Positions 22,939 to 29,700 of a stretch of 64,000 nucleotides of DNA are shown here, in pieces (position 1 is the stretch's first letter; every line of letters begins with the position of its first letter). The position numbers and the translations under genes are program-made. The DNA is from Ectothiorhodospira haloalkaliphila ATCC 51935 (GTDB lineage: Bacteria > Pseudomonadota > Gammaproteobacteria > Ectothiorhodospirales > Ectothiorhodospiraceae). The notes below the pieces were generated by a model. It did no database searches, was not told the origin of the DNA, and worked only from the letters and a program-made list of their open reading frames with translations. The DNA lies in contig NZ_KK214998.1 of the NCBI RefSeq assembly GCF_000633935.1, forward strand, positions 1,006,010 to 1,070,009. Direction: 5' to 3'.

Positions 22939-22963
22939 CACCGTCATCTGTGATGCAGCCTGA

Positions 22964-22997
22964 CCCCGCAGGCGAACGACGCCTGCGGGGTTCTTTT
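22964..22997 (+). terminator. Rho-independent terminator after the 5'-nucleotidase gene
   Basis: An 11-bp perfect stem, CCCCGCAGGCG with CGCCTGCGGGG, surrounds the loop AACGA and runs into TTCTTTT. It closes the phosphate-regulated segment. Confidence 0.92.
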
Positions 22998-23051
22998 AAT
23001 CACTCGCGCAGCGGCTCAGGGGAGTCCATAACAACCAAGTATGCTCTCAAT

Positions 23052-23240
23052 ATGGTCCAGCGTAAGGTCACATACCGGCTTTACCCCACGGCTGCCCAGC
23101 TCTCCGCCTTGGAGCACCAACGCTGGGTTCACTGCCTGCTGTGGAACGAAGCACTGGCCGAGCGGCGGCAGGCCTGGAGCGAACGGCAGGCGTCACTGGG
23201 GTTTTCGACTCAGTGCAAGCGACGAATCCACGACATTCAC
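23052..23240 (+). pseudogene. IS200/IS605-type OrfB transposase remnant (N-terminal part)
   Basis: The first ~63 residues resemble the N-terminal helix-turn-helix of TnpB/OrfB: MVQRKVTYRLYPTAAQ and LLWNEALAERRQ are typical. The similarity stops near 23240 and the rest of the gene, including the nuclease motifs, is absent. No matching insertion-sequence end could be defined. The fragment abuts the 3' end of the abrB-type gene on the other strand. Confidence 0.7.
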
Positions 23241-23443
23241 AGCCGTTCTTCTTCTCTGAGAACGGTGGTATCAATTCCTTGCAGAAAGCCTCTCATCGCC
23301 TTCATGGGCTTGAGGGGAATCACCTCGATTCTCCCCTGATATGATGTAATCTGGACTTTCTGGCCAGATACAATTCCCATGGATTCACGAATTTCTTTAG
23401 GAATAACAATCTGGTATTTGGGAGAAACGGTTACTGAAGCCAT
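23237..23443 (-). CDS. AbrB/MazE-type antitoxin, no partner toxin
   Basis: Swapped-hairpin AbrB protein of 68 residues: VTVSPKYQIVIPKEIRESMG (4-23) is the DNA-binding fold, followed by a short C-terminal toxin-binding tail. AGGTGG precedes the ATG. Antitoxins of this form are normally followed by a PIN-domain VapC toxin. Here the next sequence in the gene's direction is the transposase remnant, so the toxin has been lost or displaced. Confidence 0.8.
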   Translation of the reverse strand: MASVTVSPKYQIVIPKEIRESMGIVSGQKVQITSYQGRIEVIPLKPMKAMRGFLQGIDTTVLREEERL

Positions 23444-23728: not shown

Positions 23729-25591
23729 ATGGACCTGTCACCCATACAAGGTAAGCTACCTTTTCAACTTTCAACGCCCCGAATGCGCATCGGAAAAACA
23801 GTGTCCAGTTGTCAAACGCTCGACCACATCATCGCGGGCGGGCATCTTCATGCCTTGTTTCAACCCATCGTCGACATGAGGGATGGAAAGGTGGCGGGCT
23901 ATGAGGGTTTGATCAGAGGGCCTTCCGACAGCCCCTGGCACGCCCCGCAAAAGCTCCTGGCGGAGGCCCGGCGACAGGGACGACTGTTCGAACTGGATGT
24001 GCTTTGCCGGGAGGTGATCCTCGGGCAGTTTGCGCACCTGGGGCTTGGGGAAAAGTTGTTCCTGAATGTGACGCCCGATGTGTTGCTGGACCGCAAGGCC
24101 ATACACGGGGTGACCCTGCGGTTCCTCAAAGAGGTCGGCATCCCACCGGATCGGGTGGTGATCGAACTCACCGAGCAGGAACCCATCATCGATTATTCCA
24201 TCATGCGCGACGCCGTGCGGCATTACAGGGACATGGGGTTTTCCATCGCCCTGGACGACCTGGGTGCCGGCTACAGCAGCCTGCGGCACTGGTCCGAGTT
24301 ACAGCCCGAGTACGTGAAGATCGACATGCATTTCGTGCAGAACGTCGACCGCGATGACGTCAAGCGGCAGTTTCTGCGCTCCATCAACGAGATTGCCCAC
24401 GGCCTTGGCACCCGGATCATCGCTGAAGGGATCGAGACCGCGGCGGAATACGAGGTCATTCGACATCTGGGCATCCCGCTGGGGCAGGGCTACCATATTG
24501 CCCGGCCCGCGGCCGAGCCCACCCTGGCCGCTGAAAGGCTTCGACACGAGCGATCATGGGACCCGCAGGACTGGTTCCCGGCACCCCGCAATCGGGCCCA
24601 GGAACTGATCCACCCCAATCCGGTGGCCAACCCCAACCAGACGCTGGCGGACACGGTGGCGCAATTCCAGACATCACCGGATCTGCACTGCCTTCCCGTG
24701 GTGGACAGGGGTCGACCTGTCGGCATGGTAAGACGCCATGAGCTGCTCATGCTCTACTCCCAGCGCTTCACCCGCGAACTGCATGATCGCAGTCCGCTGC
24801 GCTATTTCATGCGCGTGGATCCGTTGCTGGTGCCCGCCGATCAGCCCCTGGAAGAGTTGAGCGAGGCCATCTCCGCCCATGGACAGGTGGATCAGGAATT
24901 CGTGATCATTGATCCGCACACCGGCGACTACCTGGGGGTCGGCTGGCTGGTGGAGCTTCTGAAGAAGCTCACCAAGCTTCAGGTGCATTACGCAAGATAT
25001 GCCAATCCGCTCACCCAGCTACCGGGCAATGTGCCCATCAACGAGCACCTGGACCAGCTGCTGGCAACCCACCAGCCCTTCACCGTGGCCTACTGCGACC
25101 TGGACCACTTCAAGCCCTTCAATGATCATTATGGTTACGCCCGTGGCGACCGCGTGATCCGTGCGCTGGGGGACCTGGTGCGCAGGTTGCCCAGGCGGCA
25201 GGGGGATTTTGTGGGGCACGTGGGTGGCGATGACTTCATCCTGGTCTTCAACGGGGAAGGAGAAGGGCACGCCCGGTGCAAATGGCTGCTGGAGGCCTTT
25301 GCCGAGCAGGTGGGGGAGTTCTACGATGCAGGCGACCGGGCAACCGGAGGGGTCACCTTGCTGGATCGACAGGGACGACCTCGCTTCTTTCCTTTGCTGA
25401 GCCTCTCCATCGGGGTGGTACCGGTGGACCCCGGCCTGTTCGAGTCGCACCTGGACATCGCCCAGCGGGCCAGCGAGGTCAAGCGTTGTGCCAAGCAGAA
25501 ACCCGGGAACACCCTGTTCGTTGACCGCCGCCTCGGCAGCGATCAACACGATATCGTGACGGACAAGCCCCCGGTCAGGCGTCTGGGGTGA
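23729..25591 (+). CDS. EAL-CBS-GGDEF cyclic-di-GMP protein
   Basis: Cytoplasmic protein of 620 residues in the order EAL (about 30-265), CBS-like pair (about 290-410), GGDEF (about 430-600). The phosphodiesterase motifs are YEGLIRG, NVTPDVLLD, IELTEQEP, DDLGAGYSS, KIDM and EGIET, so it may be active despite EGL for EAL. The cyclase motif is GGDDF, preceded at the right spacing by RQGD, an RxxD inhibitory site. Start ATG 23729 is tentative; ATG 23783 or upstream codons are possible. It converges on the siaABCD-like operon with a 17-bp overlap, and its CBS region resembles that of the SiaA-like phosphatase. Confidence 0.85.
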   Translation: MDLSPIQGKLPFQLSTPRMRIGKTVSSCQTLDHIIAGGHLHALFQPIVDMRDGKVAGYEGLIRGPSDSPWHAPQKLLAEARRQGRLFELDVLCREVILGQFAHLGLGEKLFLNVTPDVLLDRKAIHGVTLRFLKEVGIPPDRVVIELTEQEPIIDYSIMRDAVRHYRDMGFSIALDDLGAGYSSLRHWSELQPEYVKIDMHFVQNVDRDDVKRQFLRSINEIAHGLGTRIIAEGIETAAEYEVIRHLGIPLGQGYHIARPAAEPTLAAERLRHERSWDPQDWFPAPRNRAQELIHPNPVANPNQTLADTVAQFQTSPDLHCLPVVDRGRPVGMVRRHELLMLYSQRFTRELHDRSPLRYFMRVDPLLVPADQPLEELSEAISAHGQVDQEFVIIDPHTGDYLGVGWLVELLKKLTKLQVHYARYANPLTQLPGNVPINEHLDQLLATHQPFTVAYCDLDHFKPFNDHYGYARGDRVIRALGDLVRRLPRRQGDFVGHVGGDDFILVFNGEGEGHARCKWLLEAFAEQVGEFYDAGDRATGGVTLLDRQGRPRFFPLLSLSIGVVPVDPGLFESHLDIAQRASEVKRCAKQKPGNTLFVDRRLGSDQHDIVTDKPPVRRLG

Positions 25592-26300
25592 TCCAGTCCG
25601 CCACCGTCTCGATGCGATCCCGCCCCAGGGACTTGGCCCGGTAGAGGGCGTCGTCGGCACAGACGTAGAGCGTGTCGAAACGGGTGCCGGGGGCGCTGGC
25701 AGCCGCGCTCATGGAGGCTGTGACCCGCAGTCCCGGGTGAGCGGGCTCCCGTATATCCCGGATACCGCCACAGATGTCCTCGGCCAGATGCAGCGCGCTG
25801 GCCCAGTGCCCATGGGGCAGGAGGATGGCAAACTCCTCGCCACCCAGGCGCCCGCACAGGGCCTGCCCGGGCGCCCGTGCACACAGTACCCGGGCCACGC
25901 CGACGATCACCCTGTCGCCCACCGGGTGGCCGTAGCGGTCATTGACCTGCTTGAAGTGATCGATGTCCAGCAGCAGCAGGATCACCGTCCCGGAGGCCAT
26001 CAGCGACACCGTTTCGCCGATGAAGGTTTCGCGGTTGAGCAACCCCGTGAGTCCATCGTGCCGGCTTCTGAAGGTCAGTTCTTCGGTGAGTTCCCGCAGT
26101 TTCTGATTGGCCCGGTTGAGTTCACGTTCGGTGCGGTCCGCGTGGTTGATCAGCCGACCCGTGTCACGAATCATGCGGTCGAAGGCCTGGGCAAGATCCG
26201 CCAGGGCACGGTGGGCAATCTCGCCGTTTCCCTGTTCCAGGGCCTCTTTGGCCCGGCTCAGAGCGGCCTTTTCCCGGGCAAACAGGTCGGGCGCGGTCAT
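25575..26300 (-). CDS. siaD: Diguanylate cyclase, SiaD-like
   Basis: Diguanylate cyclase of 241 residues. An N-terminal helical, coiled-coil region (1-80) precedes the GGDEF domain: LLLLDIDHFKQVND, then LGGEEFAILL with an intact GGEEF active site and no RxxD inhibitory site at the usual place. SiaD of Pseudomonas aeruginosa has this layout and is activated by unphosphorylated SiaC. The ATG at 26300 is 1 nt after the siaC-like stop (TGA), indicating tight coupling. Last gene of the operon. Confidence 0.85.
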   Translation of the reverse strand: MTAPDLFAREKAALSRAKEALEQGNGEIAHRALADLAQAFDRMIRDTGRLINHADRTERELNRANQKLRELTEELTFRSRHDGLTGLLNRETFIGETVSLMASGTVILLLLDIDHFKQVNDRYGHPVGDRVIVGVARVLCARAPGQALCGRLGGEEFAILLPHGHWASALHLAEDICGGIRDIREPAHPGLRVTASMSAAASAPGTRFDTLYVCADDALYRAKSLGRDRIETVADWITPDA

Positions 26301-26301
26301 C

Positions 26302-26694
26302 TCAGAGTGCCTGTGTGGGCAGGGAACGAAAATCGATATCGGGGAAGTCCTCGGCCAGTTCCTGTCCGAACTCCAGGATGGTTTCATCGTCCTCGTCATG
26401 AATCCAGTTCAACCGGATGTGATTACCCCGGACGATGGAATAGTTGAGCATGTCCACCAGATTGAAGAGCATCTTGGTGCTGGAACTGTTGAAGTACTTG
26501 AGTTCGATGGTGACCTGGATCTCGGTGTCCTTGCAGCCCTCAAGGAACGCCCGGGTGCGCTCCAGGATGTCATGGTAGAAGGCCACGGCACTCTCCGGGT
26601 AGGACTCCCCGCGCAGGCGCAGATGACAGGCCTCGAAATCGAAGTCCACCTCCGGGGTGTCCGGGCTGGCGGGAATGTAAAGACGATTGTCCAT
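26302..26694 (-). CDS. siaC: SiaC-like phospho-switch protein (DUF1987)
   Basis: Small protein of 130 residues of the SiaC/DUF1987 family. LYIPASPDTPEVDFDF at the N-terminus and LKYFNSSSTKMLFNLVDML (65-83) are family-typical. The Ser/Thr cluster at 70-73 corresponds to the region phosphorylated in SiaC. In Pseudomonas the unphosphorylated form binds and activates the cyclase SiaD. A GGGAG ribosome site precedes the ATG. Confidence 0.85.
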   Translation of the reverse strand: MDNRLYIPASPDTPEVDFDFEACHLRLRGESYPESAVAFYHDILERTRAFLEGCKDTEIQVTIELKYFNSSSTKMLFNLVDMLNYSIVRGNHIRLNWIHDEDDETILEFGQELAEDFPDIDFRSLPTQAL

Positions 26695-26716
26695 CGGTGT
26701 GTTCTCCCATTGAACA

Positions 26717-27283
26717 TCAAAGGTAAGCGCGCAGCGTGAGTGTGAGATCGCCCGTGGGATGTTCACCGATCTCGTAGTCGATGGGTGCGGTGCTGTCCCG
26801 GGCAATGGTGAGCAGCCCAAGGCCTGCGCCCTTGCTGTTGGCCGGCGGTTCGGCGGCGCGCAGTTGCTGGCGGTAGGAACGCTTGATCTCTTCCCGGGAC
26901 ATCTCCCGCAGGGCGGACAGGGTCTGCTGCAGCTGATCGGCCCATTCGCGGGTGACAGGGTTCTTGCAGATGATCTGGAACCGCTCGCCAGAGCGGCAGA
27001 TGCACACCGACCCGGCACGCATCTCCCCGGCCGACGCATCATCCGCATGCAAGGGATCGCTGGAATAGTGGATGATGTTCTGCGCCATCTCGATGAAGAT
27101 GGAAAACAGCTTGCGCCGGGTGCTGCCCGAAGTCTCGCTGGCTTCCAGCCGCAGCTTCACTGCGTCGCCGATGGCATGGATGATGTTCTGGGAGAAATCC
27201 CCCACGTAGTAGAAGATCAGGTCGCCGTTTTGCCGTGCGCAGTCCTGGGGCTTTTCGGCACAGATGCACAGTGCTTGATTCAT
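26717..27283 (-). CDS. siaB: SiaB-like anti-sigma-type kinase (DUF6272)
   Basis: Protein of 188 residues with an HATPase-type fold: FIEMAQNIIHYS carries the N-box pattern ExxxN and NSKGAGLGLLTIAR the G-box. It matches SiaB, the kinase that phosphorylates SiaC. The ATG at 27283 follows GAGG; the frame is open further upstream into the phosphatase gene, but that part is not conserved-looking. Gap to the phosphatase gene is 10 nt and to siaC 22 nt. Confidence 0.8.
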   Translation of the reverse strand: MNQALCICAEKPQDCARQNGDLIFYYVGDFSQNIIHAIGDAVKLRLEASETSGSTRRKLFSIFIEMAQNIIHYSSDPLHADDASAGEMRAGSVCICRSGERFQIICKNPVTREWADQLQQTLSALREMSREEIKRSYRQQLRAAEPPANSKGAGLGLLTIARDSTAPIDYEIGEHPTGDLTLTLRAYL

Positions 27284-27293
27284 TGGGGAAACC

Positions 27294-28577
27294 TCAGCAG
27301 GAAGGATGTCCGGGCAATGCCAGGGCGATGAGGGTGATGTCGTCACGGGGAGGCTCGTCCCCGCGATAGTCGTCCAGAGCCTTCTCAAGCGCCTTGCCCT
27401 GCCCGGCCAGGCTCAGGTGTCGTGTCTCCAGCAGGCATTGGCGCAGGCGCTTCTTGCCAAAGGCGATGCGCTTGTCGCCGCCGATCTGGTCGATCACACC
27501 ATCACTGACCAGATAGAGCCTTTCTCCCGGATGGCATTCCAGTGTCTGGTTTTGCCACTCCTGATCCCAATGGATGCCCGTGTAACCCACGCCCGCCCGG
27601 TCGCCCTTGACCGCCTCGCACTGCCCCTGCGTGCCGGGCATCAGGCGGAACAGGGGCATGTGGGCACCGGCATGACGAATCTGCTGTCTGGTGGCGTGGT
27701 AACGCAGGATCGCCCCATCCAGACCATCGTCGGAGTTCTCCAGTCGATGGGCGTGGCGGTCGCAGCCCATCTGCTGATTCAGGCTCTGCTTGATACGGCG
27801 ATTCATGGCCTTGAGCAGGGCCGCCGGGTCATCCGGACCGTGTTCGGCAAGGGCCCGTTCCAGGGCCGCGACGGCGATCAGGGTCATGAAGGCACCTGGC
27901 ACACCATGGCCCGTGCAGTCGAACAGGCCCACCAGGAATCCGTCGGACAGAGGCAGGAAGTGGTAGAAGTCGCCGCCCACCACATCCCGGGGGCGCCAGC
28001 ACAGCCAGTGCTGTTCCGGCAGAGCTTCGGCCATGGCCTGACAGGACGGCTTCAGCAGCGACGACTGCAGGATGCTGGCGTAATCGATGCTTTCTCTCAG
28101 CTGCCGGTGCTGTCGCTCCTGGAGTTCCGTCATCGCCTGCATCAGATCCAGCATCTGACCCACACCCACGTATTCGCCATCCTCCACCAGAATGAAGCCA
28201 TCGACGAACACCTTTTCGCCGGCCTGGATGGCCAGTGATGTCAGTTCGTGAATGGGAAGGCCGGCCTCCACCACCAGAGGGCTCTTGTCCATGAACGCAA
28301 TGCAGCTCTGCCGGCTGTACAGCTCCGGATAGAACGGTTTCGCCATCATGTTGTGGAACAGGCTGCGATTGATCAGCCCCATGGGACGCTGCCCGAAGGT
28401 GACGGGCAGATTCTGCAGGGCCCGATCCGCGGCGAAGCGCTCGGCGATCTCCTCGTTGGTGTGTTCCGGATGGGCCGGCTCCACATGAACGAGCAGATCC
28501 CGGCCAATCCGGCGATCCATGGGCGTGCCGCGGTGATCAACCCGCTGAGGGGGTCGCGAGGGAAGCGTGCTGGTCAT
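27294..28577 (-). CDS. siaA: SiaA-like PP2C phosphatase with CBS-like input domain
   Basis: Protein of 427 residues. The C-terminal PP2C/SpoIIE domain has DVVGGDFYHF, FDCTGHGVPGAFMTL, SDGVIDQ and RDDITLIAL, the metal-binding aspartates of the family. It should dephosphorylate the SiaC-like protein. Instead of the membrane sensor of P. aeruginosa SiaA, residues about 25-155 form a cytosolic CBS-like pair (LPVTFGQRPMGLINRS; FMDKSPLVVE; DGEYVGVGQMLDLM), joined by a coiled coil. The ATG at 28577 follows AAGAG; a TTG at 28604 is less likely. First gene of the operon. Confidence 0.83.
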   Translation of the reverse strand: MTSTLPSRPPQRVDHRGTPMDRRIGRDLLVHVEPAHPEHTNEEIAERFAADRALQNLPVTFGQRPMGLINRSLFHNMMAKPFYPELYSRQSCIAFMDKSPLVVEAGLPIHELTSLAIQAGEKVFVDGFILVEDGEYVGVGQMLDLMQAMTELQERQHRQLRESIDYASILQSSLLKPSCQAMAEALPEQHWLCWRPRDVVGGDFYHFLPLSDGFLVGLFDCTGHGVPGAFMTLIAVAALERALAEHGPDDPAALLKAMNRRIKQSLNQQMGCDRHAHRLENSDDGLDGAILRYHATRQQIRHAGAHMPLFRLMPGTQGQCEAVKGDRAGVGYTGIHWDQEWQNQTLECHPGERLYLVSDGVIDQIGGDKRIAFGKKRLRQCLLETRHLSLAGQGKALEKALDDYRGDEPPRDDITLIALALPGHPSC

Positions 28578-28797: not shown

Positions 28798-28837
28798 CTT
28801 CCCGTAACCCTTGCAGTGCCGCCGGGCGGAGAACGAC

Positions 28838-29173
28838 ATGAACACGACCATTGAAGCTGACTCCACTCTGACAGATCGCTACCAGACAACGGTGCCGGCA
28901 ACGGTTCGTCATGCCCTGAAGCTGAAACGCCGTGACCGGATCCACTACACCATTCGCCCGAATGGGGAAGTGGTGCTCTCACGTGCGAGTGACGAGTCCA
29001 GCCGAGATCCCGTGATGACCAGTTTCCTGGCCTTCCTGGAGCGCGATCTGCAGGAGCATCCGGAAAACATTCAGGCGGTCACTGTCAGCACATTTGCCGA
29101 GGCTGAGCGTCTCACGTCAGGCGTTGAAGTGGATATGGACGAGGTGTTGCCAGAGGATGACGACGACGCATGA
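28838..29173 (+). CDS. prlF: PrlF-type antitoxin
   Basis: Antitoxin of 111 residues of the PrlF/SohA family. An AbrB-like N-terminal fold (STLTDRYQTTVPATVRHALK) is followed by an acidic C-terminus ending DEVLPEDDDDA that would bind the toxin. GGAG precedes the ATG at 28838. It overlaps the yhaV gene by 4 bp (ATGA), so the two are translationally coupled. Complexes of this kind usually repress their own promoter. Confidence 0.88.
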   Translation: MNTTIEADSTLTDRYQTTVPATVRHALKLKRRDRIHYTIRPNGEVVLSRASDESSRDPVMTSFLAFLERDLQEHPENIQAVTVSTFAEAERLTSGVEVDMDEVLPEDDDDA

Positions 29174-29700
29174 CCGCGCTGAAGGTGAACGGATGGACCA
29201 TTTACGCCCATCCACTGTTCATTGAACAGGTCGAAATGCTCACCGAAAAGGTGAAACGACTCCAGGAAAAGGATCCCGTTGGATATCGCGGCAAACCAGC
29301 CACCAAGCGCCTTGCAGCCATCGTGAAACTGGCCTTGAACGACATTCCCCAAGATCCCTCGGGGCCTCAGTACCGTCAAGGGAACACCCTCGGCACGGAG
29401 CACAGCCATTGGCGTCGGGCCAAGTTCTACCAGCAGTACCGGCTGTTCTTTCGCTACGACCTCGCCAGCAGGATTATCGTTTACGCCTGGGTGAACGACG
29501 AATCCACCAAGCGCGCCTACGACAGCAAGCATGACGCTTACGCCGTCTTCCAAAAGATGCTCAGGGAGGGTCATCCACCCGATGGCTGGCAAACCTTACG
29601 GGAGGCAGCCAAGAGCCATGGCGAGCGCTTCAGGGCGCTTCTGGGTGCAGCAGACGAGACCGTTGATGATCAGGCCATCTGCCGCGCCAGATCGCCGTAG
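29170..29700 (+). CDS. yhaV: YhaV-type ribonuclease toxin
   Basis: RelE-superfamily mRNA interferase of 176 residues, about the normal length for YhaV. WTIYAHPLFIEQVEML at the start, GTEHSHWRRAKFYQQYRLFF in the middle and YAWVNDESTKRAY follow the family. The gene appears intact, so the pair may be functional. It is convergent with the YihY-type gene, 25 bp away. Confidence 0.88.
   Translation: MTALKVNGWTIYAHPLFIEQVEMLTEKVKRLQEKDPVGYRGKPATKRLAAIVKLALNDIPQDPSGPQYRQGNTLGTEHSHWRRAKFYQQYRLFFRYDLASRIIVYAWVNDESTKRAYDSKHDAYAVFQKMLREGHPPDGWQTLREAAKSHGERFRALLGAADETVDDQAICRARSP

Follow-up and report, generated by a model that had tools for sequence, protein, structure and literature searches.

What drives a cyclic-di-GMP switch whose sensory phosphatase carries no membrane sensor is the question raised by a locus of the purple sulfur bacterium Ectothiorhodospira haloalkaliphila ATCC 51935. 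The locus was examined within a stretch of 64,000 nucleotides (contig NZ_KK214998.1, positions 1,006,010 to 1,070,009), here called the window, with all positions counted from its first letter. It consists of an operon of the SiaABCD type, which includes a cyclase for the messenger cyclic-di-GMP, and of a convergent gene for a protein with EAL, CBS and GGDEF domains. Comparison with related loci indicates that the operon probably encodes a partner-switch in which the phosphatase SiaA reads an intracellular signal through a pair of CBS domains instead of a membrane sensor, with the linked EAL-CBS-GGDEF protein as its likely local phosphodiesterase. The better supported part of this answer is that such operons recur as a subtype of the SiaABCD switch that does without the membrane.

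The operon occupies positions 25575–28577 of the minus strand, and its four genes share one orientation, follow the order phosphatase, kinase, SiaC and cyclase, and are separated by 10, 22 and 1 bases. The first gene (27294–28577, −) encodes a SiaA-type PP2C phosphatase with an N-terminal CBS pair (Pfam SpoIIE, 6.9e-24, 85 bits). It is followed by a SiaB-family protein kinase (26717–27283, −; NCBIfam SiaB_fam_kinase, 191 bits against a cut-off of 85) and by a SiaC-family phosphoprotein (26302–26694, −; PF09345, 129 bits against a cut-off of 24.5), in whose motif YFNSSST the residue Ser-70, which takes the place of Thr-68 in Pseudomonas, was located by alignment to 6k4f, 6kko and the family. 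The last gene (25575–26300, −) encodes a SiaD-type diguanylate cyclase with an intact GGEEF motif and without RxxD, the inhibitory site; its best named model is SiaD, at 138.7 bits, below the model's cut-off of 290. By sequence, the closest solved chains are the SiaA PP2C domain, SiaC and SiaD of Pseudomonas, the best PDB match being 6k4e, the SiaA PP2C domain, for the phosphatase (phmmer 1.2e-45; Foldseek 2.9e-27) and 7e6g for the cyclase. All 18 phosphatases in an alignment keep the metal-binding active-site acids of PP2C that were checked; this set is without the plasmid loci described below and without L172, a near copy of L171. The closest named record for the window phosphatase comes from Ectothiorhodospira marina (85% identity).

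In the Pseudomonas system, SiaB adds a phosphate to Thr-68 of SiaC, SiaA removes it, and SiaC without the phosphate activates SiaD (PMC7278518). R170 and D173 of SiaD belong to an I-site by which the product inhibits the enzyme (excerpt of PMC8457831). The signal activating SiaA was called unknown in a summary of 2020 (PMC7278518); carbon supply (excerpt of PMC7647112) and a temperature downshift (excerpt of PMC12834913) are conditions named for the system later. Pseudomonas aeruginosa SiaABCD and the window operon are alike in gene order, PP2C active-site acids, SiaC family and a SiaD-type cyclase with a stalk. They differ in that the window has a CBS pair for the membrane sensor, Ser for Thr-68 and no RxxD.

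The replacement of the sensor is documented by several lines of evidence. In a Kyte–Doolittle scan, no 19-residue segment of the window phosphatase averaged above 1.6; a relative's membrane SiaA contains 28 segments that do, overlapping one another. A Pfam scan of the full-length phosphatase listed no CBS domain, and a scan of its N-terminal region alone found two CBS stretches, together 23.3 bits and thus just below the cut-off of 24. The pair, at about residues 29–155 (28113–28493, −), is accepted because it is homologous to that of the EAL protein and because a homologue, L063, reaches 32.5 bits. In the AlphaFold model (predicted local distance difference test score, pLDDT, 84.5), the order of secondary-structure elements, read by eye from DSSP, corresponds to two CBS-like units, the second of which continues into a single 44-residue helix (residues 142–185) leading to the PP2C domain. 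The Foldseek matches examined, 50 of 675 for the model of the phosphatase and 50 of 1778 for that of the EAL protein, are all EAL entries or phosphatases, some of the latter also having receiver or kinase domains, so they say nothing about the CBS fold; a search for solved structures resembling this CBS type found only general CBS proteins. The nucleotide-binding signature of CBS domains is G-h-x-T/S-x-x-D. Judged by eye, it is incomplete in either unit, and adenosine ligands can therefore not be assumed. With its membrane sensor replaced by a CBS pair, the protein is a variant and not a SiaA of the Pseudomonas type. Two claims of the original prediction, an earlier reading made from the DNA letters alone, are thereby borne out: the gene order, by coordinates and family profiles, and a phosphatase with a CBS-like pair in place of the membrane sensor, by the missing hydrophobic segment together with the sub-cut-off CBS stretches and their homology.

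The same arrangement recurs elsewhere. At 22 distinct loci, SiaB and SiaC come after a CBS phosphatase, and 21 of these loci also have the cyclase (the exception being L170). They comprise the window, six other Ectothiorhodospira loci, 11 loci in ten genomes outside the genus (10 of the 11 with the cyclase) and four Burkholderiales plasmid records. In a tblastn search of a plasmid collection, 21 records were matched, 10 of them over at least 80% of the phosphatase (eight Paraburkholderia, one Caballeronia and one Variovorax); four of these 10 were examined, and all four hold the complete four-gene set. In a sample of 398 genomes from the phylum, 67 contain SiaC and at least 106 this type of CBS region (E ≤ 1e-8). 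CBS counts for the class and the phylum are lower bounds, as the best 9–10 first-look candidates per genome were scored; in the own-genome, family and outside-genus co-occurrence searches, every candidate was scored. Modules of this type are also found at the front of histidine kinases and of GGDEF proteins that stand alone. Among the 16 long CBS frames for which the local profiles showed no partner domain, five were scanned, and all five have a histidine-kinase architecture.

Two further traits accompany the CBS input. At all 22 distinct CBS-phosphatase loci, SiaC has Ser where the Pseudomonas protein has Thr-68, and RxxD ahead of GG(D/E)EF is absent from 21 of 21 CBS-type cyclases; at distinct loci of the Thr type, RxxD is present in 12 of 13. 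In the table behind these counts, duplicate loci were merged, the search pattern missed the SiaC motif in six rows, and the window appears as L002, a short locus outside which its CBS part lies. A related (S/A)D motif is preserved in the cyclase stalk, which in 16 of the 17 CBS-type cyclases aligned is seven residues longer than in the membrane-type loci L182 and L183 of the same genus. These two loci share the four families and the gene order with the window and differ in a HAMP phosphatase (dCache only below cut-off), Thr at the switch site and the presence of RxxD. L182 is a second siaABCD operon, of the membrane type and with the HAMP phosphatase, in the same genome as the window (G000:C2, about 586,370–589,580). 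The end of its siaA and the start of its siaB are apparently deleted, although an assembly error is possible, and siaC and siaD look whole. A different layout occurs in a sister genus (L232–L235), where the order is SiaB, SiaC, cyclase and phosphatase, and the phosphatase, now last, has a different N-terminus and seems membrane-bound by eye. Both the input domain of SiaA and the gene order thus vary within one family.

Given its homology to the Pseudomonas system, the window system should work in the same manner, with a soluble input. A ligand in the CBS pair would shift the long helix into the PP2C domain and so set the rate at which SiaC is dephosphorylated. SiaC would be phosphorylated by SiaB, here probably at Ser-70, and in its unphosphorylated form would bind the cyclase and switch it on. 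Because RxxD is absent, the cyclase is predicted to be free of ordinary product inhibition. Breakdown of cyclic-di-GMP would then fall to a phosphodiesterase, and one encoded nearby makes sense. In Ectothiorhodospira, the likely candidate for this role is the EAL-CBS-GGDEF protein, which would respond through its own, anciently related CBS input.

The gene for this protein (23801–25591, +) converges on the operon, and the 3' ends overlap by 17 nt. Its product contains EAL (Pfam, 8.3e-51), CBS (1.7e-9) and GGDEF (1.8e-16) domains, the CBS pair lying at 24605–24997 (+), about residues 293–423 when counted from 23729 (Pfam CBS, 43.3 bits in two stretches). While the domains and the orientation stand as first predicted, the start at ATG 23729 is probably wrong; GTG 23801 is likelier, since the homologues in L003, L006 and L007 begin at the corresponding conserved (S/T)CQT. 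The AlphaFold model (pLDDT 85.5) has an element order that fits two CBS-like units, again as read by eye from DSSP. The residues E59, N113, E146, D176, D177, K197, E233 and Q253, which we take to be the catalytic EAL positions, are all present in the window protein and are kept in 36–38 of 38 aligned homologues, the alignment covering 38 of the 49 EAL-CBS-GGDEF proteins found. The GGDEF half reads GGDDF in 38 of 38 and NPLT in 36 (NPLS in the other two), where the Sia cyclases carry GGEEF and DxLT. The GGDEF half may bind GTP without making cyclic-di-GMP.

Proteins of this architecture are already known in print, uncharacterised. Bordetella DdpB has a CBS region between EAL and GGDEF, a GGDDF motif, ESL in the EAL motif and no reported activity (excerpt of PMC12805831), and in Cupriavidus RMET_RS24295 CBS is likewise flanked by EAL and GGDEF (excerpt of PMC6629876). 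Both share the CBS placement with the window protein, and DdpB also the GGDDF motif; neither excerpt mentions a Sia operon (PMC12805831, PMC6629876). In a review, CBS domains of cyclic-di-GMP proteins are regarded as putative energy sensors (excerpt of PMC8846402). A CBS-type SiaA was not found described in the open-access literature, judged mostly from search listings. The view that the combination is undescribed thus holds for this phosphatase within that scope, but not for the EAL-CBS-GGDEF proteins.

The case for a partnership between the two transcription units comes from their linkage. Among ten genomes of the genus, that of the window included, seven have both the CBS phosphatase and the EAL-CBS-GGDEF gene, one (G370) has the EAL gene only and two have neither. 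Across the 47 genomes of the family, the phosphatase occurs in eight, the EAL-CBS-GGDEF gene in 10 and both in seven; a plain Fisher test gives p = 1.4e-5, which overstates the evidence because the genomes share kinship. In the family member G376, a CBS phosphatase and SiaB stand at a contig end. In all seven Ectothiorhodospira genomes holding the CBS phosphatase, the EAL gene lies near the operon, in three layouts. The two are convergent and overlapping in the window and L003; convergent and about 2.5 kb apart in L004 and L005, with a glycosyltransferase gene in the interval of L005; and co-directional in L006, L007 and L178, where the EAL gene is directly upstream with an ATGA overlap in all three. 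Conserved flanks as the cause of the linkage were rejected: only two flank likenesses were found between the layouts (frames of at least 120 residues, E 1e-8, within the available stretches, which are short for L005), namely an alkaline-phosphatase-like gene, recognized by eye, at differing distances, and a gene upstream in L004 and L005 that matches, at 30%, a gene 24 kb off in the window. The strongest evidence for a working partnership, which is plausible, is that the linkage has outlasted rearrangement. In the three co-directional loci, the gene immediately before that of the EAL-CBS-GGDEF protein encodes a GGDEF-EAL protein (L006 3858–6035, L007 3897–6062, L178 10671–12854), giving a run of cyclic-di-GMP genes; the protein of L006 was resolved by domain scan as REC-PAS-GGDEF-EAL.

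Outside the genus the picture is different. Of the ten genomes with a CBS phosphatase, five also hold an EAL-CBS-GGDEF gene, in four cases on another contig and in one 1.2 Mb away, and the flanks read around these five genes contain no phosphatase, SiaB or SiaC gene. The survey of co-occurrence called for by the original prediction therefore gives a divided answer, with linkage in seven of seven cases within the genus and none beyond it in the stretches seen. Other EAL-type neighbours do occur: L166 has a DUF3369-GGDEF-EAL gene directly 3' of the cyclase gene and overlapping it by 4 nt, and in L169 the same type of protein is encoded after a short gap. At 10 non-CBS Sia loci examined with longer flanks, a small sample, no EAL gene was found.

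Several observations speak against a CBS-driven SiaABCD switch with a local phosphodiesterase. All four window proteins score under the strict equivalog cut-offs for Pseudomonas SiaA, SiaB, SiaC and SiaD, the phosphatase reaching 231 bits where the NCBIfam SiaA equivalog requires 700. In a class sample of 369 evenly drawn genomes, SiaC occurs in 10, and an adjacent CBS match only in two Ectothiorhodospira genomes; in view of this rarity and of the many loci outside, CBS-type SiaABCD is recurrent but not universal. Ser without RxxD is also found in the non-CBS Sia loci of the sister genus, and five rows of the table combine Ser with RxxD. Neither trait is thus caused by the CBS input, and the combination of Ser and missing RxxD is ruled out as a mark unique to the subtype. 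Beyond the genus, 9 of the 11 loci have no adjacent EAL gene. The EAL gene also occurs without a CBS operon in G370 within the genus and in G409 and G411, other members of the family. This last point would be expected, as would the five other genomes in which both genes are present and unlinked, if the two were neighbours by chance or shared descent and the EAL protein an independent regulator beside the operon. Such an explanation has to account for a linkage that survives three layouts and largely changed flanks in seven genomes, with the ATGA overlap in three, and we consider it doubtful, though not negligible.

The relationship between the two CBS pairs bears on how such a partnership might work. 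Chance similarity was ruled out: the regions of the phosphatase and the EAL protein match with a blastp E of 6e-16, and the profile–profile comparison proposed at the outset finds them homologous (HHalign probability 98.8, E 4.4e-17). In a tree built from 89 such regions, the CBS domains of 18 phosphatases from several families form one group (support 94/91, from a bootstrap that had not settled), and those of eight Ectothiorhodospira EAL proteins group elsewhere, with other EAL proteins. The tree, of 121 columns, took 89 of 95 distinct domains, identical copies having been merged beforehand and six under 110 residues left out; it excludes the EAL proteins of L221–L225 and contains L069, a row absent from the residue table. 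A common clade of only the Ectothiorhodospira phosphatase and EAL-protein domains was rejected (p-AU 0.00065). The adjacency and homology of the genes would also fit a local duplication and fusion through which the phosphatase recently gained its pair from the EAL gene next to it, an origin that the rejected local clade and the single group spanning families make highly improbable and that was discarded on this basis. The two pairs are probably not a matched set in origin, contrary to the special pairing first suggested.

Residue conservation leads in the same direction. F48, L57, V59, P65, G67, R71, F95, P100, F128 and G138 are fixed in the 18 phosphatases and shared with the eight Ectothiorhodospira EAL proteins. 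At five other positions that do not vary among the phosphatases, the EAL proteins have a different residue (L for N41, R for N70, P for S91, L or I for C92 and K or R for D97), so an identical binding mode is less likely, while a common ligand is still conceivable. According to the original prediction, one ligand may bind both pairs and set synthesis as well as breakdown of cyclic-di-GMP at this locus. The homology and the common set of fixed residues suit this idea, as do the linkage conserved in the genus, including the translational overlap, and a search of the genome with a profile from both CBS regions, in which these two are the only strong matches (the next, a 206-residue frame, has an E of 2.7e-4). 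Against it stand the separate clades, the five replaced residues, the absence of linkage beyond the genus within the stretches examined, and the use of the same CBS type in front of histidine kinases and stand-alone GGDEF proteins. A single ligand is accordingly unlikely and not the favoured explanation. In its fullest form, which is rather unlikely and to be read as a conjecture, one intracellular metabolite acting on both CBS pairs would, by way of SiaC dephosphorylation, switch on a cyclase insensitive to its product and would simultaneously restrain, or in the opposite state release, the linked and sometimes translationally coupled phosphodiesterase, thus creating a reciprocal membrane-free switch.

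Two other features border the locus. Just upstream of the EAL-CBS-GGDEF gene lies an apparent IS605 OrfB fragment, a short frame with an N-terminal helix-turn-helix (22950–23339, +). On the other side, a PrlF/YhaV-type toxin–antitoxin pair (28811–29700, +) adjoins the sia operon and is divergent from it.

In a soluble CBS-type phosphatase, the input sits in a small module, which is open to purification and to direct screening for ligands. The missing RxxD yields a clear prediction on how such a cyclase would be limited. Finally, the pairing with EAL proteins would offer a defined case for the local control of both synthesis and breakdown of cyclic-di-GMP.

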